From Bhargavaea cecembensis (GTDB lineage Bacteria > Bacillota > Bacilli > Bacillales_A > Planococcaceae), in assembly GCF_000826125.2 (NCBI RefSeq), contig NZ_LN651373.1:73137-107552 (forward strand): 34,416 nucleotides of DNA, in the 5' to 3' direction. This document shows, in pieces, positions 1,127 to 15,404 of the stretch (positions are counted from its first letter, which is position 1; each line of letters opens with the position of its first letter). Below the pieces are notes generated by a model. It searched no databases. It was not told the DNA's origin and worked only from the letters and a program-made list of their open reading frames with translations. Position numbers and translations under genes: made by a program.

Positions 1127-1160
1127 TAAGGTGAACCGTACTTAAGTGAGGATGAAACTG

Positions 1161-1194
1161 AAAGGGACATCAATGTGGCCCTTGTCTGTTTTTT
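1161..1194 (+). terminator. Intrinsic terminator after the aldehyde dehydrogenase gene
   Basis: A stem AAGGG/CCCTT continues, after a small bulge, into ACAT/ATGT, and a run of six T follows at 1189-1194. It lies 35 bp after the stop codon. Confidence 0.6.
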
Positions 1195-1530
1195 CACTGT
1201 ATTAATTTTTATTTAAGGGCGCCAAATCAACATTCTTATTATTAGCATAGCTTGTCATCTTAGGGTAAGACTATTAATGCTATTTGAAGAAGAGCAAACT
1301 AAAGCACCTTACCAAACGAGAACGAGACTTTTCTATCACGTTGAAAGGAATGCTATATAATTGGAAAGGCCGGATTTAATAAACACCAAAACTAGTCGGA
1401 GAAGAGACGGATTCTCACTCTCACCAAGTAGTTCAATGATAAAACTCTTATTCTTACTATGTCCAAAGCTTTAATTTTCTAGGATTAACAGCTACAGCCG
1501 TATATAATTAAATAAAAAAGGGGGGGTATT
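1195..1530 (+). promoter_or_regulatory. AT-rich leader and promoter region of the defence operon
   Basis: I see no gene here. Base composition falls abruptly compared with the upstream gene, so this is the left border of the transferred segment. Two TATAAT boxes are visible. The one at 1356-1361 sits in TGCTATATAAT, with a partial -35 (CTATCA, 1333-1338) 17 bp upstream. The one at 1503-1508 has no convincing -35 and would give a leader of only about 15 nt. The Shine-Dalgarno before the helicase gene is odd: six A then seven G (1514-1526), only four bases from the ATG. Confidence 0.4.
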
Positions 1531-4395
1531 ATGTCGACGGTCTATCATGCGAAATACTTTGCACATGAATTAACTAGACAATCGTCAAAAGAAGGAGTGG
1601 AAAAGCTATCAAGGTCGTTATTTGATGCTTCCGTAGATCTAAATCCCCACCAAATTGAAGCGGCTCTTTTTGCTTTTCGCTCTCCGTTATCAAAAGGTGT
1701 AGTGCTAGCCGATGAAGTAGGACTTGGTAAGACAATAGAAGCAGGGCTAGTATTGTGCCAAAAATGGGCAGAACGTAAGCGTAGTCTTTTAATTATATGC
1801 CCCGCTTCATTACGCAAACAATGGAGCATGGAGCTCTACGAAAAGTTTAATTTACCAAGTGTAATACTAGAGGCAAAATCATTTAATGACTATATCCGCA
1901 AAGGAAAAAGTAATCCATTCGAACAAGATGCAGTAATAATAACTTCTTTTCAATTTGCTAATCGTAAAAGGAGTGAACTGCGGCTTGTTCCTTGGGATAT
2001 AACTGTAATAGATGAGGCACATAAGCTAAGAAATGTCTACCTCAAAAGCAACAAAATGGGAAAGGGTATAAATTGGGCGCTAGAAGATCGAAAAAAAATA
2101 CTTTTAACTGCCACTCCACTGCAAAATTCATTATTAGAACTTTTTGGTTTGTCTACGCTAATAGATGACCATATTTTTGGTGATATAGGCTCCTTTCGTT
2201 CACAATATATGAATAGTAAGGCCCAGTTGGCGGATTTAAAAGAACGTCTAAGTACCTTTGTTCATCGTACTCTCCGTTCACAAGTTCTAGAATACATAAA
2301 ATATACAGAGAGAATACCAATAACATTCCCATTTAAACCGTCAGAAGATGAACAAGCACTCTATAAAGGTGTTTCAAACTTTTTGTTAAAAGAGGATACC
2401 TATGCAATACCAAATAGCCAAAAGGTGTTAACAACGCTTATCATTCGAAAATTACTAGCATCATCTTCTCAAGCTCTTGCTGGAACCTTACAGACCATTA
2501 AGGAGCGTTTAGAAGCAATGCTTGAGGAACAGGATTTAAAAGATGATTGGCTAGAGGAAATTATAGATTATGATGAGATGGAAAATGATTTATTAGATGA
2601 GAAAGAAATGGAAGATGAAGCGGAAGAAGATGTTATTTCCGATAAGTCGATAGATGTTGAAAAATTAAAAGAGGAAATAAATGAGGTTAATCGTTTATTA
2701 ACTTCAGCCAGGTCTATACGAATAGATAGTAAATCAAGATCATTAATTAAGGCTCTGCGGACAGGGTTTAACCAAATGAGTAAAATGGGTGCTAAAAATA
2801 GAGCACTTATTTTTACCGAATCTCGTCGTACACAACAATATTTAAAAGATTTCTTAGAAGCTAATGGTTATGCAGGAAAGATAGTTCTATTTAACGGAAC
2901 GAATAATGATGAGGAATCAAAAAACATTTATAAACGTTGGTTAGATAAATACGAAAATACGGATAAAATAAGTGGATCTAAGACATCAGATAAGAGGGCT
3001 GCGTTGGTTGAACATTTTCGGGATGATGCCGAGATTATGATTGCAACAGAGTCTGCTGCAGAAGGCGTCAATTTGCAATTTTGCTCTTTAGTAATTAATT
3101 ATGATCTTCCGTGGAATCCGCAACGGATTGAGCAACGAATAGGGAGATGTCATCGTTATGGTCAAAAGCATGATGTTGTAGTAATTAACTTTTTAAATGA
3201 GCGAAACGAAGCAGACCAAAGAGTATATGAGCTGCTAAATGAAAAGTTTAATCTATTTACAGGTGTGTTAGGAGCATCTGATGAGGTGTTAGGTAGTGTA
3301 GAATCAGGAGTTGACTTTGAAAAACGTATCTTATCAATTTATCAGCAGTGTCGTACAACGGAGGAAATAGAATTTGCATTTAATGAGCTTCAAGAGGAAT
3401 TAGAAGAGCAAATACAAACAAAAATGATAGATACAAGACAAGCAATATTAGAACATTTTGATTCTGACGTACACTTTAGATTAAAGATAAATTTGGAAGA
3501 CACTAAATATCAGCTTGATCGTGTGAGTAAAATGTTTTGGGCACTGACCAGGGTTATTCTAAATGATAAAGCACAATTCAATGATGAAGAATTAAGTTTT
3601 ACTTTAATGAAAGAACCTACCAATCTTGAAGTGTACAAAGGTCAGTATGAACTAATTTCGAAAGAGAAAAAGGAAACAAGTGCAAATCTATATAGACTCT
3701 CCCATCCATTAGGTGAATATGTTATTAAATCTGCTAAGATGCTATCAACTCCACAAAGTGAAATTGTATTTGATATTACAAATCATCCCGTACGGATATC
3801 TGTTATTGAGTCACTAAAAGGACAAAGCGGTTACTTAATACTTACGAAATTAACAATAGATTCATATGAAAAGGAAGAGTACCTACTTTTTAATGGAATA
3901 ACTGATGAAAATCAACAAATTGACCAGGAAATATGTGAAAAGTTATTTCAATGCACAGGAAATGAGGAACATTCAACACAGTGGTCTAATGAAAGGCAGC
4001 AATCTTTGATTAAAGATGCAAATCGACATGTACAAGCTACCATTAGTCAATCACTTGAAAATAATAATAGATACTTCCATGAAGAAAGAGAACGGTTAGA
4101 ACGATGGGCAGATGATATGATATTAGCATCGGAAAAAGAATTGCAAGAAACTAAAGCTAAACTTAAAGAAGCTAAGAGACGAGCAAGAATGGCCAAATCA
4201 ACAGAAGAACAGCATCAAATTCAAAAGGAAATTAAGAGCTTAGAGCGCACTCAACGAAAACAAAGACAACGCATTTTTGAAGTAGAAGATGAAATAATGG
4301 ATAAACGTGACGATTTAATTGACGAGCTTGAGGAGAGAATGGTACAGAAAACCGAAAAAGAAGAGTTATTTACGGTTCGATGGAAAGTAATCTAA
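1531..4395 (+). CDS. SNF2-family DEAH helicase of a three-gene restriction/defence operon
   Basis: This 954-residue protein is a superfamily 2, SNF2-like ATPase. Motif I is DEVGLGKT (61-68), motif Ia follows as CPASLRKQW, motif II is DEAH (161-164) and motif III is TATPLQN (193-199). The second RecA domain has RALIFTESRR near residue 424, the motif V region AEGVNLQF near 510, and the motif VI region RIEQRIGRCHRYGQ near 533-546. The spacing resembles RapA-type and other bacterial SNF2 translocases. Between the helicase halves (about 337-375) lies a very acidic, probably flexible segment. The last 110 or so residues are charged and heptad-like (ETKAKLKEAKRRARM onward), a likely coiled coil for binding a partner. 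It is the first gene of an operon, with the Mod gene 12 bp downstream behind its own AAGGAGG. The expected role is ATP-driven translocation on DNA within a defence complex. Codon use is AT-rich, unlike the flanking genes. Confidence 0.9.
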   Translation: MSTVYHAKYFAHELTRQSSKEGVEKLSRSLFDASVDLNPHQIEAALFAFRSPLSKGVVLADEVGLGKTIEAGLVLCQKWAERKRSLLIICPASLRKQWSMELYEKFNLPSVILEAKSFNDYIRKGKSNPFEQDAVIITSFQFANRKRSELRLVPWDITVIDEAHKLRNVYLKSNKMGKGINWALEDRKKILLTATPLQNSLLELFGLSTLIDDHIFGDIGSFRSQYMNSKAQLADLKERLSTFVHRTLRSQVLEYIKYTERIPITFPFKPSEDEQALYKGVSNFLLKEDTYAIPNSQKVLTTLIIRKLLASSSQALAGTLQTIKERLEAMLEEQDLKDDWLEEIIDYDEMENDLLDEKEMEDEAEEDVISDKSIDVEKLKEEINEVNRLLTSARSIRIDSKSRSLIKALRTGFNQMSKMGAKNRALIFTESRRTQQYLKDFLEANGYAGKIVLFNGTNNDEESKNIYKRWLDKYENTDKISGSKTSDKRAALVEHFRDDAEIMIATESAAEGVNLQFCSLVINYDLPWNPQRIEQRIGRCHRYGQKHDVVVINFLNERNEADQRVYELLNEKFNLFTGVLGASDEVLGSVESGVDFEKRILSIYQQCRTTEEIEFAFNELQEELEEQIQTKMIDTRQAILEHFDSDVHFRLKINLEDTKYQLDRVSKMFWALTRVILNDKAQFNDEELSFTLMKEPTNLEVYKGQYELISKEKKETSANLYRLSHPLGEYVIKSAKMLSTPQSEIVFDITNHPVRISVIESLKGQSGYLILTKLTIDSYEKEEYLLFNGITDENQQIDQEICEKLFQCTGNEEHSTQWSNERQQSLIKDANRHVQATISQSLENNNRYFHEERERLERWADDMILASEKELQETKAKLKEAKRRARMAKSTEEQHQIQKEIKSLERTQRKQRQRIFEVEDEIMDKRDDLIDELEERMVQKTEKEELFTVRWKVI

Positions 4396-4407
4396 GGAGG
4401 AAGAGCA

Positions 4408-7395
4408 ATGGCAACAACGCAGCAAAAGAAGTTTATTGATTTGCTAGAAGAGATATTTCAGTTTGACCAAGCAGATTTAGATTTTGGTATATACCGAATC
4501 ATGAACCAAAAAAGAGAAGAGGTAACGAATTTTTTAAATAATGAATTGTTACCACAAGTTAAGAAAGCATTTGACAAGTATAGGAACGCTGATGTAGAAG
4601 CGGTTAAGCAACAAATGGAAGAGTTAGAACAAAAACTAAATGAAATGGGAGTAGCAAAAGACAGCTCGGTGAAATACTTAACATTAAAGGAAAGAATTAA
4701 CAAAGACGTTGACATAATGGCCCTAGAAAATGAGGTTTTTTCAGATTTAACGAATTTTTTCCGCCGTTATTATTATGAAGGTGATTTCCTTTCTTTACGT
4801 AGATATAAAAAATACATATATGCTATCCCATATGAAGGCGAAGAGGTGAAGTTACACTGGGCTAACGCTGATCAATATTATGTGAAAACATCAGAGTATT
4901 TTCGTAGTTACACATTTAACCTTCCTTCTGGAAAAGCAGTGCATTTCAACCTAATAGAAGCGAATACGGAAAGAAATAATAATAAGGCACAAGAAGGAAA
5001 AGAACGCCGATTTATATTGTTTGAGGAAGAACCAATAAAAGAGGAGGATGAAGAATTATATATTCAGTTTGAGTATAGGCCGCCAGAAGGGAAACAAAAT
5101 CAAAAGCAACTAAATGAGAATGCACTAGAGTATTTATTTTCCCTAACCGAGTACAATGATTGGTTAAGAGAATTAAAAAAACTTGCTCCAACTGAAAAGA
5201 ATAAGAAACGAACAATTTTAGAAAAATATTTAAATGATTATACATCACGTAATACATTTGACTACTTTATTCACAAAGAACTAGGTAAATTCTTACGAAG
5301 GGAACTAGATTTTTTCATTAAAAATGAGGTAATGCATTTAGATGATGTTGACACAGAAAATGAAAGAGGATTTGAACAGTATCTTTCTAAAGTAAAAGTT
5401 ATAAAGTCAATAGGAAATAAGATTATTTCATTTCTAGAACAGATTGAAGACTTTCAAAAACGGTTATGGCTGAAGAAGAAGTTTGTTGTTGAAACAAATT
5501 ACTGCATTACTATAGATAGAATTCCAAAAGAGTTTTATAAAGAAATTATTGAAAATAAGGATCAAGTTGATGAATGGATAAAGCTATTTAATATAGATGA
5601 AATAGAAAGTTTTACCAATCCTGTTACTACTGAATTTCTAAAAGAAAATCAGAATCTAATTCTTGACACTAAGTTTTTTGATACAAAATTTAAAGAAAAT
5701 TTATTATCTAACTTTGATGACATTGACCACGACACTAATGGTCTTTTAATTCATAGTGAGAATTTCCAAGCACTTAATCTTATTCAAGAGAAGTATTCAA
5801 ATAAAATCAAATGTGTATATATTGATCCGCCGTATAACTCACCTTCAAGTGAGATATTGTACAAAAATAATTATAAACACTCGACTTGGCTAACTCTGAT
5901 GGAAAACAGGCTAAACTTGAGCAAATACTTATCAACAAGAGATGGTTCTACAGTAGTTGCAATAGATAAATATGAGCACAATGGACTTTTTGCTTTATTA
6001 AGCCAGCTTCATCCTAATTCGGATATAGCTTCAGTATCAATTGAACATAATAAAAAAGGTACACAGGGTGACCATTTTTCATATTCAAATGAATACGCCA
6101 TATTCACAATGCCAAATGAACTTAAGTCTTTAAATAGAGTGGAGATTCCTGAGGATGAATGGGAGTTTTCAAATCTTAGAAATTGGGGTGGTGAGTCTTT
6201 GAGAGAAGATGCTGCCAATTGTTTTTACCCAGTATATGTTAAGGATAATGAAATAATTGGGTTTGGTGAAGTAAGTGAAGATGATTTTCACCCTAGTTCC
6301 TCTAATTTAATAAGTAAGGATGGAGTAATCGAAATTTATCCAATTGACGATGAGGGGATAGAAAGGAAATGGAGATATGCAAGACAAACCGTAGAAGACA
6401 TTAAAAAATATTTAAAGGTAGACAAATCAAGAAAAGGTAATCTACAGGTTAAACTTGCTAAGGCAACAGAACAATATAAAACTATGTGGTATTCTTCAAA
6501 ATATAATGCTGGTGATTATGGAACAAAGGTATTAAGTGCCCTGGGACTAGGAAAAAACTTTGACTATCCAAAATCAATTTATACAGTTAGAGATTGTATA
6601 TTCGCAGTATCCGACAAAAATGATATTGTATTAGATTATTTTGCTGGTTCTGGTACAACTGGTCATGCAACAATCAATCTCAACAGAGAAGATGGAGGAG
6701 ATAGAAAATACATTCTGGTTGAAATGGGTGAGTACTTTAATACGGTTACAAAACCACGTGTTCAAAAAGTTATTTATTCCGAGGATTGGAAGGATGGTAA
6801 ACCAGTTTCACGGAGAGGCTCCAGTCATATCTTTAAATATATAGAATTAGAAACCTATGAAGATACACTGAACAATATAAAATTTAATCGTACACCAGAG
6901 CAGCAAGCTGCAATGGAAGAGATTATGTCTACTGATGCACGTGAGGATTATTTACTTTCTTATATGCTGGATGTTGAAGCTGAGGGTAGTCCATCACTAT
7001 TAACTATTGAGGCTTTTAATAATCCGTTTGAGTATAAAATGAAAATTATGGAAGGCGCGGAAATTAAATCTAAGAAAATTGACTTGGTAGAAACATTTAA
7101 TTATTTGATTGGGATACATGTTAAAACAATCGATATGATTAACGGGGTCAAAGTGATCACTGGTGTTCTTCGGAACGGAGAAGAAGTACTGATTCTTTGG
7201 AGAAATATAGATGAGGTACCCAATGAACAACTAGAGGATTTCTTTAAAAAACAAGGATATAGTACCCGTGATACTGAATTTGACCGTATTTATGTTAATG
7301 GTGATAACCACTTAGAAAACTTAAAATTAGCAGTCGATAGATGGAAAGTAGTACTTATTGAGGAAGAGTTTAAACGTTTAATGTTTGATGTATGA
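4408..7395 (+). CDS. Type III Mod-like adenine-specific DNA methyltransferase
   Basis: This 995-residue protein should transfer a methyl group from S-adenosylmethionine to adenine N6, marking self DNA and reading the recognition site. Catalytic motif IV, DPPYN, is at 473-477. The AdoMet motif I (DYFAGSGTTGH, from 743) comes after it, which is the beta-class order typical of type III Mod subunits. The roughly 265 residues between them, longer than the usual connector, probably hold the target-recognition domain. The first 450 or so residues form an extension not found in short Mod proteins. It begins FQFDQADLDFGIYRIM and includes a basic/aromatic stretch FFRRYYYEGDFLSLRRYKKY. A further C-terminal domain of about 200 residues follows motif I. 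The start is set by AAGGAGG at 4396-4402. The Res gene begins 19 bp after the stop. No frameshift is visible and all motifs are intact. Confidence 0.93.
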   Translation: MATTQQKKFIDLLEEIFQFDQADLDFGIYRIMNQKREEVTNFLNNELLPQVKKAFDKYRNADVEAVKQQMEELEQKLNEMGVAKDSSVKYLTLKERINKDVDIMALENEVFSDLTNFFRRYYYEGDFLSLRRYKKYIYAIPYEGEEVKLHWANADQYYVKTSEYFRSYTFNLPSGKAVHFNLIEANTERNNNKAQEGKERRFILFEEEPIKEEDEELYIQFEYRPPEGKQNQKQLNENALEYLFSLTEYNDWLRELKKLAPTEKNKKRTILEKYLNDYTSRNTFDYFIHKELGKFLRRELDFFIKNEVMHLDDVDTENERGFEQYLSKVKVIKSIGNKIISFLEQIEDFQKRLWLKKKFVVETNYCITIDRIPKEFYKEIIENKDQVDEWIKLFNIDEIESFTNPVTTEFLKENQNLILDTKFFDTKFKENLLSNFDDIDHDTNGLLIHSENFQALNLIQEKYSNKIKCVYIDPPYNSPSSEILYKNNYKHSTWLTLMENRLNLSKYLSTRDGSTVVAIDKYEHNGLFALLSQLHPNSDIASVSIEHNKKGTQGDHFSYSNEYAIFTMPNELKSLNRVEIPEDEWEFSNLRNWGGESLREDAANCFYPVYVKDNEIIGFGEVSEDDFHPSSSNLISKDGVIEIYPIDDEGIERKWRYARQTVEDIKKYLKVDKSRKGNLQVKLAKATEQYKTMWYSSKYNAGDYGTKVLSALGLGKNFDYPKSIYTVRDCIFAVSDKNDIVLDYFAGSGTTGHATINLNREDGGDRKYILVEMGEYFNTVTKPRVQKVIYSEDWKDGKPVSRRGSSHIFKYIELETYEDTLNNIKFNRTPEQQAAMEEIMSTDAREDYLLSYMLDVEAEGSPSLLTIEAFNNPFEYKMKIMEGAEIKSKKIDLVETFNYLIGIHVKTIDMINGVKVITGVLRNGEEVLILWRNIDEVPNEQLEDFFKKQGYSTRDTEFDRIYVNGDNHLENLKLAVDRWKVVLIEEEFKRLMFDV

Positions 7396-7414
7396 TGATA
7401 GGAGGTGAGATGTA

Positions 7415-10400
7415 ATGGCACCAGGAAAGAAAAAGAAAATACAGTTGAGTAACCAGCTCGTATTGAATCAATATATGCTTCATCTTTTTGAAGTGGACAG
7501 TTTTAAAGATTTAGCTAAAGACATGAAGGATAGATCACTTGAGGAGTTTGATACAGATAATGTATCACGTTTTTACAAGCATTTATCCACAAGACTCGTT
7601 GATAGGGTAGAATTAAGTGCCGATATACTAAGACAATATGATGAAAATATAGTAAGCCATACTATGAAGATAAATGAAAAAAGAGATAAAAAAATAAAAT
7701 GGAAATATTTTCAGTATCTTTCATTATTATTTACTGAAGTATACCTTGATCGTTATTTTCATCAGAGAGAAAAATTACTACAAGATTTAAACGCTTTTGT
7801 TGATAGATTTAACGAAGATAAATCTAAAGCAGAACAACTTAGCTATTATGATCAAGAAGGCCTGAAAAAGTTAGCATTCTGGAATGCTACTGGCTCGGGA
7901 AAGACTTTACTAATGCATATCAATATTCTTCAGTATCTGCATTACTTTCACAAAAATAATCGTCGTGAAGACTTAGAACAGGTTATTCTTTTAACGCCCA
8001 GTGAAGACCTATCGAAGCAACACTTGAGGGAATTTGAAGCTTCAGGTTTACAAGCCGCACTCTTTGATAAGAATATACAGGGACTTTTCAGAGGGGAAGA
8101 AATTTCGATTATTGATATTCATAAATTAAAAGATGATATGGGTGAGAAAACCGTAGCAATTGATTCATTTGAAGGAAACAACCTGGTTCTTGTGGATGAG
8201 GGCCATCGTGGTTCTTCAGGTGATGAATGGAGAAATAAACGAGAAAGATTAAGCGAACAAGGTTTTGCTTTTGAGTATTCAGCAACTTTTGGCCAAGCTG
8301 TATCAGGAAAACCGAAGTTGATGCAGGAATACGCAAAATGTATTCTTTTTGATTACTCATACCGTTATTTCTACAATGATGGATACGGGAAAGATTATCG
8401 TATATTGAATTTGCAAGATGATAGCGATGAACAGATTCGTCACCTATATCTAACAGCCTGTTTAACATCCTTTTATCAACAAATTAAATTATACAAAGAA
8501 AATGAATACTCTTATCGTCCGTTTATGGTAGCCAAACCACTATGGGTCTTCGTAGGTGGAAGTGTTAACGCTTTACGTACTCAAAAGGGTAGAAAGGTTT
8601 CTGATGTAACAGATATTCTATTATTCATTGCTCGGTTTGTGAAAGAAAGTCAAGAAAGTATCAATATGATTAAGCGCCTTCTAAGCGGAAATCCAGGATT
8701 GTTAGATGCTAAAGGAAATGAAATATTTGGTAACTCTTATCCTTACCTTATTGACGAGAAAATGTCTGCAGAAGAAGTTTATCAAGATATATTATTGCTT
8801 GTTTTCAATTCTACGATTGCTAATGCAACATTGAGAGTAGAAAACCTAAAAGGCGTAGATGGCGAAATAGCACTTCGCATCGGCGAGCATGAACCATTTG
8901 GTGTCATTAATGTAGGGGATACAAATGATTTGAGCAAACTTTGTGCTACTTATCAGGAATTACTGGTAACTGATCGGGATTTCTCAACTTCCTATTTCCA
9001 TGAAATCGATAAGAAGGAGTCATCAATCAACCTTCTAATAGGATCGAAAAAGTTTACGGAAGGATGGAGTAGTTGGCGTGTAAGTACAATGGGCCTAATG
9101 AATCTAGGGAGAAGTGAAGGTTCACAAATCATACAATTGTTTGGACGTGGGGTCCGTTTGAAAGGATACAATTTTAGCCTGAAACGTAGTGAAGCCTTAA
9201 CAGGTGAGATTCCTCAGGTGCCGAAGTATCTTCGCTTTGCGGAGACACTAAATATTTTTGGAATACGTGCAGATTACATGCAACAATTTAAAGAGTATCT
9301 TGAAGATGAAGGAATTCAGACGGAGTTCGATTATGAGGAGATTTATCTTCCAGTTTTAAAGGACTATCATAAAAGAAAACTTAAGCTAAAGGCATTGCGT
9401 TTAAAAGAAGGTATTAATTATAAAAGGCAGGGACCTAAGCCATTGTTTCAGTCACCAACGGAACATTTACCTAGTAACGCTAAAATAGTAGTAAACTGGT
9501 ATCCTAAACTTCAGGTTCAGGATAGTCGATTAAAAGGATTTAGTATTCGTGAAACGCAGGCAGCCGAACTTAACAAAGAAACATTTTCAGACAAGCATAT
9601 AGCCTTTATGGACATGAATCATATATATTTTGAGATGCAGAAGTTTAAAAATGAGCGCTCTTGGTACAATTTGATACTATCGAAAGAAGAAATTGTAAAT
9701 CTTTTGTTTAATGATTACTGGTATGAGATTGAGATCCCAAAAGAAGAATTGACTTTTGATTCTTTTAGCAAAGTAAAACGCTGGGAGGAAATAGCGTTAG
9801 TACTTCTTAAAAAGTATTGTGAGAAGCAATATCTATATGCTAAAAAAGATTGGGAAGCACCACATATGGAGTACTATGATGTAACAGAGGCGGATAGCAA
9901 CTTTTTTGAAGAATATAAGGTGTCTGTTGACTCAAATGACGATAGTATGTTAGCAAAATTAAAACAGTTGAAGGATGCACTTAAAAAGAACAAACTATTT
10001 GATGTTAAGTTTGGTGGCTTAGAGTCATTTACTTTTAATCAACATTTGTACCAACCATTAATTACTGTGGATGGAGCGGCAATCAAGGTCACACCAGTAC
10101 CCCTAAATGAAGGTGAATATAACTTTGTGCGAGATTTGAAGGATTATTATGAACGGAATCAAGACTTCTTCGAGGATAAAGAATTGTATCTGTTACGAAA
10201 CCAAAGTAAAGGAAAAGGAATAGGCTTCTTTGAAGCAGGTGGATTTTATCCAGACTTTATTCTTTGGATTTTACATGGAAATAAACAGTACATTACCTTT
10301 GCCGATCCAAAAGGAATCAGGAATCATTCTATTACAGACTCCAAGCTACAGTTTTACCGACATATTAAAGAGCTAGAACATCGCTTAAATGATAATGAGA

Positions 10401-10585
10401 TAATCCTTAATGCGTTTACAATCGCCAATACTTATTACAGTGATATCTTGAATACAGGGCTTAAACTAAGTAAAGAGGAAATGGAAGAGCAGCATATATT
10501 GTTCCAAAATGACGATAAGGATACTTATATAGATAAAATGATTCATGGCATTTTAGAAGAGAATAACATCACATCATGGTATTAA
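7415..10585 (+). CDS. Type III Res-like helicase-nuclease with PD-(D/E)xK domain
   Basis: This 1056-residue protein combines a superfamily 2 ATPase with a nuclease. Walker A is ATGSGKT (158-164), Walker B is DEGH (261-264), and SATFGQAVSG fits motif III. KKFTEGWSSWRVSTMGLMN and QLFGRGVRLKG correspond to motifs V and VI, as in type III restriction Res subunits. Near the C-terminus FYPDFILW (Pro946-Asp947) is followed 16 residues later by FADPKG (Asp964, Lys966). That fits a PD-(D/E)xK endonuclease, with Asp where Res proteins more often have Glu. The predicted role is ATP-dependent cleavage of unmodified DNA with the Mod protein. The ribosome site is AGGAGG at 7401-7406. It is the last intact gene of the operon; a weak terminator and a cut-off ORF follow. 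A classical Res would pair with Mod alone, so the SNF2 gene marks this as a variant. Confidence 0.92.
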   Translation: MAPGKKKKIQLSNQLVLNQYMLHLFEVDSFKDLAKDMKDRSLEEFDTDNVSRFYKHLSTRLVDRVELSADILRQYDENIVSHTMKINEKRDKKIKWKYFQYLSLLFTEVYLDRYFHQREKLLQDLNAFVDRFNEDKSKAEQLSYYDQEGLKKLAFWNATGSGKTLLMHINILQYLHYFHKNNRREDLEQVILLTPSEDLSKQHLREFEASGLQAALFDKNIQGLFRGEEISIIDIHKLKDDMGEKTVAIDSFEGNNLVLVDEGHRGSSGDEWRNKRERLSEQGFAFEYSATFGQAVSGKPKLMQEYAKCILFDYSYRYFYNDGYGKDYRILNLQDDSDEQIRHLYLTACLTSFYQQIKLYKENEYSYRPFMVAKPLWVFVGGSVNALRTQKGRKVSDVTDILLFIARFVKESQESINMIKRLLSGNPGLLDAKGNEIFGNSYPYLIDEKMSAEEVYQDILLLVFNSTIANATLRVENLKGVDGEIALRIGEHEPFGVINVGDTNDLSKLCATYQELLVTDRDFSTSYFHEIDKKESSINLLIGSKKFTEGWSSWRVSTMGLMNLGRSEGSQIIQLFGRGVRLKGYNFSLKRSEALTGEIPQVPKYLRFAETLNIFGIRADYMQQFKEYLEDEGIQTEFDYEEIYLPVLKDYHKRKLKLKALRLKEGINYKRQGPKPLFQSPTEHLPSNAKIVVNWYPKLQVQDSRLKGFSIRETQAAELNKETFSDKHIAFMDMNHIYFEMQKFKNERSWYNLILSKEEIVNLLFNDYWYEIEIPKEELTFDSFSKVKRWEEIALVLLKKYCEKQYLYAKKDWEAPHMEYYDVTEADSNFFEEYKVSVDSNDDSMLAKLKQLKDALKKNKLFDVKFGGLESFTFNQHLYQPLITVDGAAIKVTPVPLNEGEYNFVRDLKDYYERNQDFFEDKELYLLRNQSKGKGIGFFEAGGFYPDFILWILHGNKQYITFADPKGIRNHSITDSKLQFYRHIKELEHRLNDNEIILNAFTIANTYYSDILNTGLKLSKEEMEEQHILFQNDDKDTYIDKMIHGILEENNITSWY

Positions 10586-10588
10586 CAG

Positions 10589-10621
10589 GTAGGGGTCTTT
10601 TTAGCTCCTACTTTTATTTTT
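10589..10621 (+). terminator. Probable terminator after the Res gene
   Basis: GTAGGGGT pairs with GCTCCTAC, using two G-U pairs, around a CTTTTTA loop. A T-rich tract with one A interruption follows. It is weaker than the other terminators and may be leaky. Confidence 0.5.
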
Positions 10622-10637
10622 AGAAGGGGGAATACGA

Positions 10638-10760
10638 TTGAATGAGCATATTCTCAAAAAGATAAGTCAAATAATCATAGAGTCTGCTAGTAATAATGAA
10701 ACTATCGAGTACAATCAAATTAGCAAACAATTAGAGGGTGTTATTGCTAGTCTCCATTGA
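10638..10760 (+). pseudogene. Truncated fourth gene of the defence operon (40-codon remnant)
   Basis: A GAAGGGGG ribosome site (10623-10630) precedes a TTG start and 40 codons. They begin LNEHILKKISQIIIES and continue through ETIEYNQISKQLEG, ending at TGA 10758-10760. The helix-rich start looks like the N-terminal part of a longer protein, possibly a winged-helix or nuclease-associated domain, and has the AT-rich codon use of the operon. Base composition changes at the stop, so I infer that the rest was lost at a recombination junction near 10755. The family is not recognised. It could instead be a genuine small protein, but the abrupt composition switch argues for truncation. Confidence 0.45.
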
Positions 10761-10832
10761 CCAAATGCTGACGGCATTGCCTGTCCGGAGATTGACGGAT
10801 ATACTGTCCATAAGAATCTATAGAAAGGAAAA

Positions 10833-10949
10833 GGACGCCTCCCCTGAGCGCATGGTCTTGCCGGACCATGCGGGAAGCGTCCCCACCAAAAAGTATATGA
10901 TGATCATATCAGATTACACATTGGTTTTAAACCCCGAAAGCGGGGTTTT
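10833..10949 (+). ncRNA. Candidate structured RNA: three hairpins ending in a terminator
   Basis: Three perfect inverted repeats occur in a row. The first is two-part: an outer stem GGACGC (10833-10838) with GCGTCC (10877-10882), and inside it CGCATGGTC (10849-10857) with GACCATGCG (10864-10872). The second is ATATGA-TGA-TCATAT near 10895-10909. The third is AAACCCC/GGGGTTT (10929-10948) around GAAAGC, ending in TTTT, which looks like an intrinsic terminator. No convincing ORF spans the unit. It may be a small RNA, a mobile-element end, or a leader whose gene was deleted. I recognise no known RNA family. Confidence 0.35.
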
Positions 10950-11069
10950 CGGTTAAGCCGACGGGAGCCACCATCCCTTGCCTTGCCTGCGACGCTGTCG
11001 CCGATCATCGGAAGTTAGGTGTTCAGGCAGAAGAAGAGACAGTATTAAGGAACAATATCTAATTGAAGA

Positions 11070-11263
11070 CTGAAAAATCCAACCATTGGAATGACCGCTG
11101 AGGAAGTGGAAATGTCACTAGGGGGCAGAAAAAAGTCATCGCATAGTTTTCAATACATGAATAGTGGGTTTATTGAAACGGACAATACCTTTATTTTACT
11201 GACGGCATCCTAACAAGTTTTAACGAATGGAAATATAGAAAACCAGACATCAGTGTTACATGA
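11070..11263 (+). pseudogene. Frameshifted fragment of a BamE/SmpA-like small protein
   Basis: Two adjacent frames give pieces that look like one protein. Frame one (from 11070) reads KNPTIGMTAEEVEMSLGG, the 'IGMT.EEV' opening typical of BamE/SmpA-fold lipoproteins of Bacilli. After a shift near 11186 the other frame reads YLYFTDGILTSFNEW, the usual YxYFxDGxLTxxxE ending of the same family. Neither frame alone makes a protein, and a stop (11064-11066) lies just upstream. This is a decayed 3' fragment. The family assignment is from recalled motif patterns only. Confidence 0.5.
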
Positions 11264-11305
11264 ATTGGTCAAATTATTGCTTTACAGAAAGGAGTGGCTT
11301 GAGTC

Positions 11306-12109
11306 GTGGCTGAAATCAACTATGGCCAATTGAGTGAACCGCCTCTCGTCCTCTGGCTGATTTGGCAGAACACCGAAACTCGGAACCGCTATCATGTGGG
11401 CAACCTCATTTATGAAAAAGGACAGTATCTTTTCTATTATGAAAAGAAAAACCGTCGTTCTTTAAGCGAGGCCGAAAAGGATGGATATGAGCCGCACTTG
11501 GCGTTCCCGGATACCGAGAAGGTTTATCGTTCTTCAGCGCTCTTTCCGGCCTTCGAACGTCGTCTTCCGGATCGGCGCCGGGTCCGGTTCAAAGAAATTC
11601 TGAAGTCCCTTGACCTGGATGAAACAGCTGATGACTTCGAGTTATTGGCCGCCACAGGCGGAAGGTTGGCGACAGATCCCTATGAGTTCGTCATGCCGAT
11701 CACTAGAAACGAGAACGAGTTTATCTTTAGTTTTTATATTGCCGGCTGGAGATACAACCAAGGCGAAGAGATGCTTGATCAGTTAACCCGCGGAATGAGC
11801 GTTCAACTGAAGCTGGAACCGGAAAATGAGAAGGACCCTAAGGCGGTTGCTCTTTATGATTCAGTATTAGGGCAGAAGCTGGGGTATGTCCCGGCGTTTT
11901 ATAGCGGGTTTATCTTCGACTTACTGCAAAGTGGCTCATCGTGCAGGGCCGACATCACTGAAATCAATCGAAATGCTTACCCTCAAAAGAAAGTGAAAGT
12001 CTCCATCCGGGGAGGCGTGCAGGGCAAAGAGCCTGGGTTCATCTCGGAATATACGATGTCCGTCGAAGAAGCCACCGAAACGTATAATGCATTGCGGAAA
12101 GATGCGTAA
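11306..12109 (+). CDS. HIRAN-domain protein, function unknown
   Basis: A 267-residue protein with a GTG start, set by AAAGGAG at 11288-11294. Residues of roughly 133-230 fit the HIRAN domain. They include FSFYIAGWRY, a central LKLEPENEKDPKAVALYD, and KLGYVPAFYSGFIFDLL, which match the family pattern of 'L.EP.N..D..AVaVyd' followed by 'lGYvP'. HIRAN domains bind DNA ends or single-stranded 3' ends and are often found with SNF2 helicases and nucleases. The N-terminal 130 residues (PLVLWLIWQNTETRNRYHVG onward) are not recognised. There is no signal peptide or membrane segment. It stands alone between two decayed genes, with a strong terminator 80 bp after its stop. Base composition is intermediate. 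It could be a DNA-damage or defence accessory, but nothing shows its partner. Confidence 0.75.
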   Translation: MAEINYGQLSEPPLVLWLIWQNTETRNRYHVGNLIYEKGQYLFYYEKKNRRSLSEAEKDGYEPHLAFPDTEKVYRSSALFPAFERRLPDRRRVRFKEILKSLDLDETADDFELLAATGGRLATDPYEFVMPITRNENEFIFSFYIAGWRYNQGEEMLDQLTRGMSVQLKLEPENEKDPKAVALYDSVLGQKLGYVPAFYSGFIFDLLQSGSSCRADITEINRNAYPQKKVKVSIRGGVQGKEPGFISEYTMSVEEATETYNALRKDA

Positions 12110-12189
12110 GCCGGGTTAAATGCTCTGCATCCATGTTAAATTGCAGCGAAGCGGTATATAGGCAGATGGGCGATAAACTTAAAACTGCG

Positions 12190-12229
12190 TTAAAAAACTT
12201 CCGGCTGTCTTAGCTTGGAAGTTTTTTAA
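12190..12229 (+). terminator. Strong terminator after the HIRAN gene
   Basis: A perfect 13-bp stem TTAAAAAACTTCC/GGAAGTTTTTTAA with a 14-nt loop. The A and T arms make it usable from both strands. Confidence 0.85.
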
Positions 12230-12524
12230 TCGCCTTTAACCCATAATCTATCGAGGAACGACCATCAGCGAGCAGGAGACCTAAGTATACAAAGTCCCTC
12301 TTTTCGTTCTCATTCCATAAAAAAGCTTGGGAATGAAACTAGGGAAAAGGCATCTGCAAAATTGGAAGGTGTCTTACGAGTGACAATGGAAAGTATGGTC
12401 TTGCTTTTACATTTGAAGTCCAGGTCGATAAATTCACAACAACAGAGCTTCCCACCGTAACCGTCCAACGGTTTCAGGCTGACACTTCGTCTTGATCTGC
12501 AAAGAGTCCATGCTCATCCCATTA
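12230..12524. other. Gene-poor decayed stretch
   Basis: No intact gene is visible. One plus-strand frame reads GKYGLAFTFEVQVDKFTTTE and ends at TGA near 12496, but it has no plausible start or ribosome site. It is probably the tail of a lost gene that I cannot assign. Confidence 0.3.
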
Positions 12525-12870
12525 TTACGGGTGAATTTGATAGTCGATGTACGAGAAACGCATTAAAATAATCAGACCGATATCGCGCATTTCCTTCATC
12601 CGCTCATCATCCATCGTAAAACCTTTGATCGATTATTCATTTAATATAGCCCATTGGCGGAACTGTGTACCACGATGGGAACGAACACGATAGCCCACTG
12701 CAATAATCATTTCTAGATTGTAGTGTTTAACTCTTCTTTTGACTTCCTTCATTTTGAACTTGTAAGTAATCCTTATAAGTTGCTTCCTCTGACAATTCAC
12801 CTTCAGCATGTATATTGTTATATGCAAAGTAATATTGGAACGCATCCGTGAGTATTGGTGCCTCTAAAAG
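12525..12870 (-). pseudogene. RhuM-family protein pseudogene
   Basis: Minus-strand fragments match the RhuM family (first described in a Salmonella pathogenicity island; function unclear, common in defence and mobile regions). Reading from 12870 down, one frame gives LLEAPILTDAFQYYFAYNN and ELSEEATYKDYLQVQNEG, then runs into a stop. A second frame picks up with EVKRRVKHYNLEMIIAVGYR and VRSHRGTQFRQWA, the most conserved part of RhuM. After another stop, KGFTMDDER appears before the match ends. So there is at least one frameshift, one in-frame stop and missing ends. It is a non-functional relic on the strand opposite its neighbours. Confidence 0.75.
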
Positions 12871-12891
12871 ACGATTCTACCAAAAAACGAT

Positions 12892-12933
12892 CTGTCCAGG
12901 TAGGGAAGCTACAGAAAATAAAAAACAGGCCCT
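12892..12933 (+). repeat. Imperfect direct repeat, copy 1
   Basis: CTGTCCAGGTAGGGAAGC followed by ACAGAAAATAAAAAACAGGC closely matches 14823-14866. This copy holds only the left arm of the terminator that is complete in the other. It may mark a duplication or insertion border. Confidence 0.55.
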
Positions 12934-12946
12934 ATGTAGATTCTAT

Positions 12947-12977
12947 TTGCAAATGTAACCCATTTTAAAGTTATAAT
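12947..12977 (+). promoter_or_regulatory. Possible SigA promoter for the 62-residue ORF
   Basis: TTGCAA (12947-12952) and TATAAT (12972-12977) are separated by 19 bp, longer than the usual 17. The downstream ATG lies 33 bp away. Confidence 0.45.
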
Positions 12978-13009
12978 TAGTCAAGTCATAAACAAAAAGG
13001 ACGGATGGT

Positions 13010-13198
13010 ATGAAATATAATAAATCAATTATGCTCAAGCTGATCAATGAACACCGAGAGTTGCATGATGAATTAAAAAGGCTGAAAGCTGAAATGGGTT
13101 TGGAGAAAAACTTTGCAGTCAAGGCGTTGTATCATTCATATGTTGCAGAGGACGGTCCTTACATGAAAGAATACCAGAATTTAGACAGGTTACATTAA
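13010..13198 (+). CDS. Small hypothetical protein, 62 residues
   Basis: The ORF starts at an ATG preceded by AAAGGACGG and by a plausible promoter. The product is charged and helical, with LINEHRELHDELKRLKAEMG likely to form a short amphipathic helix or coiled coil. There is no signal peptide, and I recognise no family. Codon use is ordinary. The ribosome site and promoter favour a real gene, but the decayed surroundings leave open that it is the start of a longer lost protein. Confidence 0.5.
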   Translation: MKYNKSIMLKLINEHRELHDELKRLKAEMGLEKNFAVKALYHSYVAEDGPYMKEYQNLDRLH

Positions 13199-13203
13199 AT
13201 CGT

Positions 13204-13586
13204 AGCAGCCGGTTTTGGGTGTATGTCTTGGTTACCTATCCGGACACTGCTGACGAGATTGTGAAGCGTGAGATTGACCGATGCCATTAGGTCGCTGTTG
13301 GAGTCGCGACGGGTGTGACCACCAGGCCGCAACCGCATCGACGGTAGTTGGTCCACAGGCCACAATCGCTGCTGCCACTGGCGCAATCGGGCCAGCCGCC
13401 AAAGCGTATGGGGAGGCGTTTTACGGATGTTTGGCTTCGATCAGCTTTCCGGATGCCATTCGCGGCCAGATCAAGGCAGTACTGAACCACGATGACAAGG
13501 GGATTACGGATTGGAGCGGGTCCCACCATCCGATCCGCCATCCGTATGGGCCGCAGTTTGCGTACTACGGGTACGGTTATTTTTGA
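13204..13586 (+). pseudogene. Broken ORF, Ala/Gly-rich, family unknown
   Basis: One frame reads VTYPDTADEIVKREIDRCH, stops (TAG), and continues VAVGVATGVTT before a further stop. Another frame then carries TASTVVGPQATIAAATGAIG and an extended tail ending HPYGPQFAYYGYGYF. Joined, they would form one protein of about 120 residues with a hydrophobic Ala/Gly-rich middle. No start with a ribosome site is visible for the second frame. I read it as a frameshifted gene of unknown function; a small intact ORF from 13281 is the alternative. A terminator follows directly. Confidence 0.35.
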
Positions 13587-13626
13587 ACAGAGGCATCTGT
13601 CCAGAAAGGGCACACCCACATCCCAG

Positions 13627-13665
13627 ATCCGGACACTTGAAAAGAGTCCGGATTTGGGGCTTTTT
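13627..13665 (+). terminator. Intrinsic terminator
   Basis: Stem ATCCGGAC/GTCCGGAT with an 11-nt loop, followed after TTGGGGC by five T. Confidence 0.75.
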
Positions 13666-13683
13666 CGTTCCGGCTGACTCCGT

Positions 13684-13689
13684 TATACT
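13684..13689 (+). promoter_or_regulatory. Possible -10 box upstream of the nuclease gene
   Basis: TATACT lies about 110 bp before the chosen start. The -35 region is only the T-rich tail of the preceding terminator, so the promoter is weakly supported. Confidence 0.3.
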
Positions 13690-13801
13690 AAACGGGTGCT
13701 GAAAGCCGTCAATCTGGATGCGTTTTTTTTTGAAAGAATTGTTTCAACACCTAATCAAGCATTTCGAAGAAGCACTTGACATCATAGAGGAGAACATCAA
13801 A

Positions 13802-14803
13802 ATGAAAAAGAAACTCAACTATTTAATCTTGCTTTTTACACTCACCTTTATGGTTGGTTGTACAGAGGGTGAAGATGCTGCCATTTCAGATGAAACAAAA
13901 TCACAAGTAGAAACAACTGTTAATACCAGTGATCTTGATGAAAAACCAGTTGAAGAGACAGATCCGGAAAAAGCCACTGCAGACACAAATAACGAAAACG
14001 AAGAGGCTGCCACTACGGCTGCCGATGAAGCGATAGCGGAAGAAATATCAGATGAAACAAATGATGAACAGTTCTCAGGATACAAACTGATTGAAGTGGA
14101 TGGCGGTGATTTGTCTGGACACCGTGAACCTAAAGTCGCCGTCGATATTGGATATGGAGACCGCGAGTATTGGGCGTTTACTAACGAACACGGGCAGCTG
14201 GTGCGGGTGATTGCCGACGAAATTATTCTGCAGGATGACAGTAGCGAGCCTGTAACGTCAAATGGCAGATACTATAATGACGAGGCAAAGGTTCCGGGGG
14301 TTGAAAGTGACACTTTAGATGAAGGACATGTGATTGCCGATTCTCTCGGAGGAGTGTCGAATGCTTATAATATCACTCCGCAAGACAGTACGCTCAACCG
14401 GCACGGTGACCAGGCGTACATGGAAAAGGTCATTCGTGATGCAGGTGGGGTTACGGATTTTGAAGCGATTATCACCTATCCAAACACGGAAACGCAGACC
14501 CCTTCGAGTTATCAGTACACCTATACTTTGATGGGTAACGAGGTCGTTGATAAATTTGATAACGTGAACCCTGATCAAGTAAACGAATCACTCGGCTTAA
14601 CAGACAGCAAAACTACCAGTGAAACTTCAGAGCCAACCGGTTCAACCACAAATGGTGATATTTCTAGTATTGATACAAATGGTAATGGCCAGGTTACCAT
14701 CAAAGAAGCAAAAGCAGCTGGTTTCAGCATGCCGATCACGAGTGATCATTGGTTATACCCTTATATGCGCGATAATGACGGAGACGGAATGGTCGGAGAG
14801 TAA
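13802..14803 (+). CDS. Secreted lipoprotein DNA/RNA non-specific endonuclease with EF-hand-like tail
   Basis: The start chosen is ATG 13802 behind GAGGAG. It gives a lipoprotein signal, MKKKLNYLILLFTLTFMVGC, with the lipobox Cys at residue 20; an ATG at 13718 would bury this signal. Mature sequence: an acidic, Thr/Glu-rich linker of about 65 residues, then a nuclease domain. Its core DEGHVIADSLGGVSNAYNIT and the Asn-Arg pair in TLNRHGDQAYMEK fit the DNA/RNA non-specific endonuclease fold (His catalytic, Asn metal ligand). The C-terminus carries two EF-hand-like calcium loops, DTNGNGQVTIKEAK and DNDGDGMV, flanking SDHWLYPYM, a module also seen in other secreted Bacilli nucleases. Predicted role: degradation of external nucleic acid at the outer face of the membrane, for nutrients or competition. 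It runs convergently toward the cold-shock gene and shares its terminator. Confidence 0.85.
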   Translation: MKKKLNYLILLFTLTFMVGCTEGEDAAISDETKSQVETTVNTSDLDEKPVEETDPEKATADTNNENEEAATTAADEAIAEEISDETNDEQFSGYKLIEVDGGDLSGHREPKVAVDIGYGDREYWAFTNEHGQLVRVIADEIILQDDSSEPVTSNGRYYNDEAKVPGVESDTLDEGHVIADSLGGVSNAYNITPQDSTLNRHGDQAYMEKVIRDAGGVTDFEAIITYPNTETQTPSSYQYTYTLMGNEVVDKFDNVNPDQVNESLGLTDSKTTSETSEPTGSTTNGDISSIDTNGNGQVTIKEAKAAGFSMPITSDHWLYPYMRDNDGDGMVGE

Positions 14804-14822
14804 GCCCTAGTAAATTGAGCAA

Positions 14823-14866
14823 CTGTCCGGATGGTTCAGGGAGTTGCAGAAAATAAAAACAGGCCC
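14823..14866 (+). repeat. Imperfect direct repeat, copy 2
   Basis: CTGTCCGGATGGTTCAGGGA followed by GTTGCAGAAAATAAAAACAG matches copy 1 at 12892-12933, and here continues into the complete terminator hairpin. The two copies bracket about 1.9 kb. Confidence 0.55.
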
Positions 14867-14884
14867 CCTAAAGGGCCTGTTTTT
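14855..14884. terminator. Bidirectional terminator between nuclease and cold-shock genes
   Basis: Perfect 12-bp stem AAAAACAGGCCC/GGGCCTGTTTTT with a CCTAAA loop. T runs on both strands let it serve both converging genes. Confidence 0.9.
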
Positions 14885-14897
14885 AAAGACGATTTAA

Positions 14898-15098
14898 TTA
14901 AGCTTTTTGAACGTTGGCTGCTTGAGCGCCACGAGGGCCTTGCTCAACGTCGAATGTTACTTGTTGACCTTCGTCCAGCGTTTTGAAGCCGTCGCTTTGG
15001 ATTGCGGAGAAGTGTACGAATACGTCGTCTCCACCTTCACGTTCGATGAAGCCAAAACCTTTTTCTGCGTTGAACCATTTAACTGTACCTTGTTCCAT
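14898..15098 (-). CDS. csp: Cold-shock protein, CspA family
   Basis: A 66-residue OB-fold protein that binds single-stranded nucleic acid and acts as an RNA chaperone. RNP1-type KGFGFIE (residues 14-20) and RNP2-type DVFVHFSAI are both present, as is the opening [11 protein letters not shown], at the full length normal for the family. The ribosome site is GGGAGG on the minus strand, 8 bases before ATG. Just upstream in the leader, GTGCGATCACGCAC forms a small perfect hairpin (15114-15127), and more than 100 bases without a gene precede it. Long structured leaders are common for csp genes. Which paralogue (cspB, cspC or cspD) cannot be decided. Confidence 0.97.
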
Positions 15099-15340
15099 GT
15101 TTGTTGCCTCCCAGTGCGTGATCGCACATTGTATTACTATTGTTGCTCAAAGTATTAGCGAGATGAAAAGTGGATATTCATACGATCCTTTACACCGAAC
15201 AAAAATAATTAACTTCATCATAACAGACGGAGGGAGAAATTGCAAATGAGATTTAAATTTTACAACCTCATCATGTGCCCATTTGCTTTCTCGCATGAAC
15301 CTTCACGAATCTCGCAGGCTTCATCCGTACATCACCATCA
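15099..15340 (-). promoter_or_regulatory. csp leader and upstream region
   Basis: No gene is supported here. On the minus strand a candidate TACAAT -10 lies near the hairpin described for csp, without a good -35. The rest is AT-rich and without further features I can support. Confidence 0.35.
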
Positions 15341-15392
15341 AAAGCTCCCCGCCGCCAGCCGATTCAATCCGGCTGCGAGGGGGAGCTTCTTT
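15341..15392 (-). terminator. Terminator of the amino-acid permease gene
   Basis: Stem AAGCTCCCC (15342-15350) with GGGGAGCTT (15380-15388), and an inner CAGCCG/CGGCTG stem. It lies 17 bp past the stop of the minus-strand permease gene. Confidence 0.75.
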
Positions 15393-15404
15393 TATTCCCT
15401 TCAA

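Follow-up and report, generated by a model that had tools for sequence, protein, structure and literature searches.

A probably mobile SNF2-Mod-Res operon of type III restriction-modification character in Bhargavaea cecembensis

The closest described relatives of the locus reported here are Eco86II of Escherichia coli NCTC86 and BspHIV of Acinetobacter species H, type III restriction-modification systems in which mod has, on its 5' side, a conserved gene for a helicase-like ATPase; more than 500 genomes have homologues of this ATPase next to type III genes (Murray et al. 2021, PMC8259958). The protective mark of both systems is N4-methylcytosine (m4C), and cloned mod alone methylates, the helicase-like ATPase not being required (PMC8259958). 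Eco86II methylates one strand and cuts, in an ATP-dependent manner, ~25 bp from paired inverted sites; its preparation cut DNA partially in vitro, at type III positions and on plasmids with head-to-head sites, and no peptides of the extra ATPase were detected in it (PMC8259958). What the third protein does was left as a question. Here we describe a locus of this layout in Bhargavaea cecembensis, carried by a stretch of 34,416 nucleotides (contig NZ_LN651373.1, positions 73,137 to 107,552 of the forward strand) that was analysed as a whole and is called the window: an operon of three genes encoding an SNF2-type ATPase, a DNA methyltransferase (Mod), and a helicase-nuclease (Res).

The operon is intact and occupies positions 1531-10585, with its three open reading frames (ORFs) on the + strand:

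1531-4395, + strand: SNF2 ORF, 954 amino acids (aa)
3988..4341, + strand: SNF2 coiled-coil tail, residues 820-937, modelled by AlphaFold as a pair of long helices (820-887 and 891-937)
4408-7395, + strand: Mod ORF, 995 aa
5905..6627, + strand: likely target recognition domain of Mod, its hypervariable central segment, residues ~500-740
7415-10585, + strand: Res ORF, 1056 aa
10250..10312, + strand: PD-x16-DxK nuclease site of Res, residues 946-966 (P946 D947 ... D964 x K966)

The intergenic gaps measure 12 bp (SNF2/Mod) and 19 bp (Mod/Res), and the GC fraction is 0.29-0.39 at 1001-11000, lower than in the first kb (0.61) or past 15 kb (0.47-0.65). A preliminary description of the window had proposed a tight, AT-rich three-gene operon of type III-like character with an extra motor, and its account of the coordinates, gaps, and low GC was borne out. 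Among the 87 loci found to hold all three genes, 84 have the identical order SNF2-Mod-Res, which means that the operon cannot be a chance product (loci L037 and L042, whose Res sequence is the same as that of L023, were omitted from this count).

The SNF2-Mod-Res locus of E. coli NCTC86 is 55, 37, and 40% identical to the window's SNF2, Mod, and Res, respectively, over nearly their full length, and strains F9792 and B4103-1, which have the GAGCC motif in common with the Eco86II strain (PMC8259958), turn up alongside it in the same search. We take the NCTC86 locus to be Eco86II because the strain, the layout, and the published remark that 5 of the 6 strains have just one putative type III system each (the exception being Acinetobacter species H; PMC8259958) all agree. 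The three-gene layout was already published in 2021, and the window is not new in kind. By analogy with this homologue, the window system would be expected to methylate DNA and to cleave it in type III fashion.

As read from the protein sequences, the operon belongs to type III by its Mod family, its exchangeable recognition domain, and a Res that combines a superfamily 2 (SF2) ATPase with a PD-(D/E)xK nuclease. Mod carries the Pfam domain N6_N4_Mtase at residues 467-777, which leaves an N-terminal extension of ~450 residues; it scores 785 bits with the PADLOC model MTase_III (PDLC03646), and it is a beta-class amino-methyltransferase, motif IV (DPPY) preceding motif I (FAGSGT). Both a profile search and the fold of its predicted model match the same three solved type III Mods, 6k0w, 7dsu (Mbo45V), and 4zcf (EcoP15I). 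Of the preliminary description of Mod, the beta class and the long N-terminal extension stand; the adenine specificity is not established, because the NCTC86 Mod shares DPPY and FAGSGT while Eco86II is reported to make m4C (PMC8259958). For the same reason, motif I (FAG or FGG) fails as a guide to N6-methyladenine (m6A) or m4C. We also considered the N-terminal extension as a holder for SNF2 and rejected it, since SNF2-less Mods of the window lineage are similarly long (989 aa in L015, 1088 aa in L016) and SNF2-bearing Mods of other lineages (about 510-695 aa) have no extension.

Res matches Pfam ResIII/DEAD and the PADLOC model REase_III (PDLC03654, 785 bits), and its Walker A (GSGKT) and DEGH motifs are conserved among relatives. 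In an alignment of 106 Res proteins, the window's included, D947 is present in all 106, D or E at position 964 likewise in 106/106, and K966 in 94, so that the Res-like helicase with a PD-DxK site seen at the outset is well supported. The remaining 12 relatives have histidine at 966 and come from loci both with and without SNF2. A seven-row Res profile gave no match to solved chains at E 0.01.

The central segment of Mod behaves differently from the rest of the protein. Compared with close relatives, it is ~16-45% identical per 25-residue block, its flanks being mostly 60-90% identical; over 202 pairs whose Res proteins are at least 70% identical, the median identity is 20% in the segment (~500-735), 72-74% in the flanks, and 74% in the N-terminus. 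Loci L064 and L065 illustrate this, with Res 93% identical and the central segment of Mod only 18%. These patterns suggest that the segment is likely an exchanged recognition domain, swapped between close relatives, and different target sites would therefore be expected among them. Repeat-based phase variation found little footing in the operon, where just two weak 7-base arrays occur, at 7376 and 10312.

The first protein of the operon has the Pfam domains SNF2-rel_dom and Helicase_C, and its Pfam matches are to helicase families only. Walker A (GLGKT), DEAH, and QRxGRxHR are intact, the motif columns being invariant in 51 relatives. In the AlphaFold model (mean predicted local distance difference test score 80.7), the two long C-terminal helices form the coiled-coil tail, as had been anticipated from sequence, and Foldseek over the model length returns RapA as the top match (TM-score up to 0.53); on this predicted structure, the ATPase is RapA-like. 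Its best PADLOC model is DrmD (PDLC02619, 687 bits), with HmaA scoring 192 bits; on the NCBIfam models for DrmD it reaches 685 of the 950 bits needed (DrmD_b, NF038318) and 282 of 610 (NF038317).

Linkage of the three genes was followed from both sides. A profile search of genome contigs with a seven-row Res alignment gave 531 relatives; in the best 80, drawn from many phyla, 53 loci have SNF2, 6 lack it despite enough upstream DNA, and 21 could not be judged. The ratio of 53/59 is valid for close relatives (at least 47% identity) because the scan kept the best 80 of 531, and deeper Res branches without SNF2 include a haloarchaeal plasmid, a Priestia plasmid, and several Bacillota. Some SNF2-less loci have other large genes before Mod, encoding a UvrD helicase with a PD-(D/E)xK domain or NACHT proteins with an FGE-sulfatase domain (L015:4069-7014; L077:3116-6103; L084:4127-7009). 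From the SNF2 side, a scan of viral contigs gave 79 loci, of which 27 (L167-L193) were counted and 38 (L208-L245) left out. Where the counted loci encode an SNF2 of 800 aa or more and extend 4.4 kb or more beyond it, Mod and Res are present in 18/18, a figure that sets aside six full-length SNF2 loci without room and three fragments, and takes in L188 and L189 (DISARM-like), L183 (Mod-Res upstream), L184 (other strand), and L172 (cut-off Res). The fragment L190 has room and no Mod/Res, and 14 more distant viral loci (L194-L207) gave no Mod/Res match with the reference set employed. The preliminary description had staked its proposal on a conserved linkage of SNF2 with mod and res, and the 53/59 Res-anchored and 18/18 SNF2-anchored viral loci bear this linkage out.

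The same association extends to genomes and plasmids. Among 299 Bacillota genomes, 22 have a window-type Res (E up to 1e-30), 8 have the SNF2 (E up to 1e-60), and 3 have both, the window's own included; Mod and Res adjoin SNF2 in 7 of the 8 SNF2-positive genomes. Five of the latter lack the window-type Res: four have a different type III Mod-Res beside SNF2 (Res of PDLC03648 in L130 and L132, of PDLC03647 in L131, and a ResIII + RE_endonuc protein in L133), and the fifth, G182, shows a partial SNF2 match and no Mod/Res. The DrmD_b model matches the other seven genomes, none above cut-off. Type III Res was confirmed by PADLOC in 9/9 Res proteins checked from SNF2 loci, those of the L132 type having been labelled by hand initially and confirmed as REase_III afterwards. 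Both Mod and Res are also present in 10 of 12 plasmid and E. coli loci chosen from longer match lists, the exceptions being L014 and L252; outside this count stand four E. coli loci, L261, L263, and L264 with both and L260 with neither. Type III identity of Mod and Res together with conserved SNF2 linkage supports the original picture of a type III-like system with an extra motor.

The SNF2 family is thus found alongside type III Res of three lineages (PDLC03654, PDLC03648, and PDLC03647). The SNF2 tree groups its sequences by partner lineage, with 11 changes where shuffling gives a mean of 27, and the SNF2s of L012, L066, and L096 fall among those of another partner lineage. Six near-identical or repeated rows were left out of this tree and one spurious row, L057, is still in it; the L184 branch beside DrmD_b was flagged as long-branch attraction. 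Over 54 loci, SNF2 identity correlates with that of Res (r 0.92) and of the Mod N-terminus (r 0.91), values reached in 0/999 permutations, and hardly with that of the central Mod segment (r 0.10); the spurious L057, the partner-swapped L066 and L096, and the duplicates L037 and L042 were omitted. SNF2 diverges in step with the protein core (Res and the Mod flanks), not with the recognised sequence.

The reading we favour, to which we give an even chance of being correct, is that of a mobile three-gene type III restriction-modification system in which SNF2 is an accessory RapA-like remodelling motor aiding restriction. Mod would read a short asymmetric site through its swappable central domain and methylate there (m6A or m4C), and Mod and Res together would act as an ATP-triggered sliding nuclease that cuts unmarked DNA. 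For SNF2, we infer that it may be accessory to this Mod-Res core, dispensable for methylation and probably for cutting naked DNA, and that in the cell it would aid restriction, its likeliest action being to remodel protein obstacles such as RNA polymerase, nucleoid proteins, or stalled Mod-Res. We favour this reading because SNF2 is RapA-like, goes with three Res lineages, and diverges with the protein core, and because the published ATPase is needed neither for methylation nor for some cutting in vitro (PMC8259958); that deeper Res branches manage without SNF2 is a further point in its support. Several observations weigh on the other side. The window's genes are known from sequence alone; cutting without detected SNF2 would be equally expected if SNF2 were idle; and the role at RNA polymerase belongs to RapA and is carried to this SNF2 branch by analogy. 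SNF2-Res r falls to 0.63 over 57 loci when L057 and the two partner-swapped loci are kept. Moreover, an intact-looking SNF2 stands without Mod/Res beside it in L014, a locus disrupted by insertion sequence (IS) elements, and with an IS element at the expected Mod position in L260, and L252 encodes a divergent 1238-aa SNF2 protein without Mod/Res.

A broader alternative takes the DrmD-like SNF2 and type III Mod-Res as a shared chassis: alone, it would be a three-gene type III system with room between the genes for backup effectors (slots), and with DrmA-DrmB it would be a DISARM form, SNF2 being the coupling factor that passes unmethylated DNA to whichever effector is plugged in. We put this forward tentatively, as possible rather than probable. 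Three viral contigs with DrmD_b (L188, L189, and L249) hold type III Mod-Res plus DrmA-DrmB, with drmD-mod-res-drmA-drmB on one strand in L189:6559-18448 and L249:9980-22017; in L188, the Mod gene and a Res-like gene, whose REase_III match is a weak one of only 45 bits, are located upstream. These contigs make up 3 of 3 DrmD_b DISARM loci that could be viewed in full. The slots are seen in 38 of 84 loci ordered SNF2-Mod-Res, which have a gap of >300 bp at SNF2/Mod or Mod/Res. Twenty chosen gap proteins were scanned with Pfam and ten of them also with PADLOC; 13/20 pass a Pfam cut-off, and their families are AAA ATPases, DUF4276, Fic, DUF1016/YhcG nuclease, Schlafen AlbA_2, 23S rRNA-intervening protein, Abi_2, DUF3800, GmrSD_N, RhuM, PHP, and RecD-like helicase. 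PADLOC names several gap proteins as HEC-01, SoFic, AbiD, Ppl, or candidate families, and annotated plasmids add AIPR, VapC, and DUF262. In the E. coli O104:H4 chromosome, genes for an AAA ATPase and an S8 peptidase separate SNF2 and Mod (L264:10379-13756). The slots are not tied to SNF2, because the SNF2-less loci L047 and L142 have them too, and the window operon has no cargo between its genes. Defences embedded within other systems have reportedly been described in a preprint. Hma and type I loci are already known to house one defence inside another (PMC12255303). Neither the SNF2-DISARM tie nor the between-gene slots were found in print in the open-access literature (bioRxiv was outside the scope), and in the text of Murray et al. 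2021 neither 'SNF2' nor 'DISARM' occurs (0 each). The gaps between SNF2, Mod, and Res are a place to seek accessory defence genes.

The licensing of cleavage by SNF2, as suggested in the preliminary description, is weakened by the published cutting without detected ATPase peptides and by methylation with mod alone (PMC8259958). A cleavage motor, in which a translocating SNF2 meets sliding Mod-Res and makes cutting more efficient or independent of two inverted sites, seems to us rather unlikely. Intact SNF2 motor motifs, the close co-divergence of SNF2 and Res, and the only partial digestion by Eco86II (PMC8259958) speak for such a motor, but the Eco86II preparation, in which no SNF2 peptides were detected, cut at type III positions and on plasmids whose sites lie head to head (PMC8259958), and SNF2 is absent from 6/59 close and several deeper Res loci.

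Less likely again is a DISARM- or BREX-like arm, in which SNF2 would be a separate sensor or blocker that uses the methylation mark alone and halts phage replication without Res cutting. DrmD is the best named match of SNF2 and accompanies type III Mod-Res in L188, L189, and L249, and a BrxHII-like SNF2 is essential for ARMADA defence according to the available part of the source (PMC12458937); yet the operon proteins include no DrmA/DrmB, PglZ, or YprA partner among the PADLOC matches listed or by phmmer, and the family retains the Res nuclease site. We assign little probability to SNF2 as a safety factor that strips Mod-Res off host DNA and limits self-cutting in repair or replication: a RapA-like recycling fold and dispensability for the reported enzyme reactions (PMC8259958) would suit it, and the existence of SNF2-less relatives argues against it. 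That SNF2 is a passenger, near type III genes merely through defence-gene clustering, is very improbable, since the order kept in 84/87 loci, the linkage from both sides, and the correlated divergence outweigh its occurrence without Mod/Res in L014, L252, L260, and the fragment L190.

The operon was inserted at a variable site, delimited by blastn of the window against four congener loci and by the ORFs of the G300/G301 interval:

1127..15402, no strand: variable island

In congeners G299 and G302 the site is empty, an aldehyde dehydrogenase gene being followed within ~200 bp by an amino-acid permease gene; G300 has other DNA at the island site, and G301 shares the island's right part and has other DNA on the left. 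A window-type Res (E up to 1e-60) was found in 1 of 61 relatives searched, the window's own genome. Within the island, 11306-12109 (+) encodes a protein with HIRAN and HipA N-terminal domains (PADLOC candidate family PDC-M03B, 310 bits), and a DNA/RNA non-specific endonuclease domain is encoded by the lipoprotein-like ORF at 13718-14803 (+), to which a stretch of G301 is similar. A decayed RhuM-like stretch with an in-frame stop lies at 12594-12854 (-), 2 kb downstream of the operon, and shares 42% identity, across 96 aligned residues, with the RhuM embedded between Mod and Res in L040. Immediately past Res, a 40-aa ORF (10638-10760, +) ends abruptly; none of the related loci searched has an equivalent, and it was rejected as a fourth operon gene. 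At the other end, a small gene for a helix-turn-helix protein lies ahead of SNF2 or overlaps its start in L010, L011, L012, L014, L250, L253, L254, and L261, being labelled MAD1 by NCBI in L014 and L261; the window has none.

Compared with known systems, the operon shares with classical type III enzymes (EcoP15I, EcoPI) a beta-class Mod with a central recognition domain and a Res with an SF2 motor and a PD-(D/E)xK nuclease, whereas those enzymes have no SNF2 gene and the ~450-residue N-terminal extension of Mod is the window's. The PADLOC searches proposed in the preliminary description upheld type III Mod and Res and went against Hma, the helicase-methyltransferase-ATPase grouping that it thought the operon might equal. 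Like the Hma and BREX-related DUF499 systems, the operon has an SNF2 helicase and a DNA methyltransferase; Hma requires a DUF499 ATPase, HmaC, in the available parts of its descriptions (PMC8565338, PMC12839542), and the operon is not Hma because there is no HmaC among the PADLOC matches listed for the three operon proteins and two flanking ones, and because its third gene is a type III Res; SNF2, too, scores far lower with HmaA than with DrmD. ARMADA, as far as the available part of its description goes, likewise combines a RapA/BrxHII-like SNF2, a methyltransferase, and a further helicase, but its methyltransferase is PglX-like and its helicase YprA, where the window has type III Mod and Res (PMC12458937). 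The window SNF2 resembles that of class 1 DISARM with DrmD_b in scoring best with DrmD, but it is ~80 aa longer, falls below the NCBI cut-off, and stands apart from the DrmD_b rows, which form a separate branch in the SNF2 tree. DISARM proper is ruled out for the window by this score and by the absence of DrmA/DrmB, none being found there by phmmer with the DrmA and DrmB of L188 and L189. The locus most closely related to the window operon, L017, does have DrmA- and DrmB-like genes downstream (L017:13473-23168), with helicase-like ORFs after them and then the beginning of what may be a cytosine methyltransferase; as they are on the opposite strand, we read them as a neighbouring system and not as part of the operon. 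Eco86II and BspHIV remain the closest, a gene for a helicase-like ATPase without a nuclease motif lying immediately 5' of their mod and res; the window comes from another host phylum, and its specificity segment differs, so that another target site would be expected. To these systems the present analysis adds the RapA/DrmD placement, the three Res lineages, the core-tracking divergence, and the named E. coli copies; the placement and the co-divergence sharpen the question of the SNF2 motor's job, and the third protein's role, as left by Murray et al., is made directly testable by single-gene deletions.

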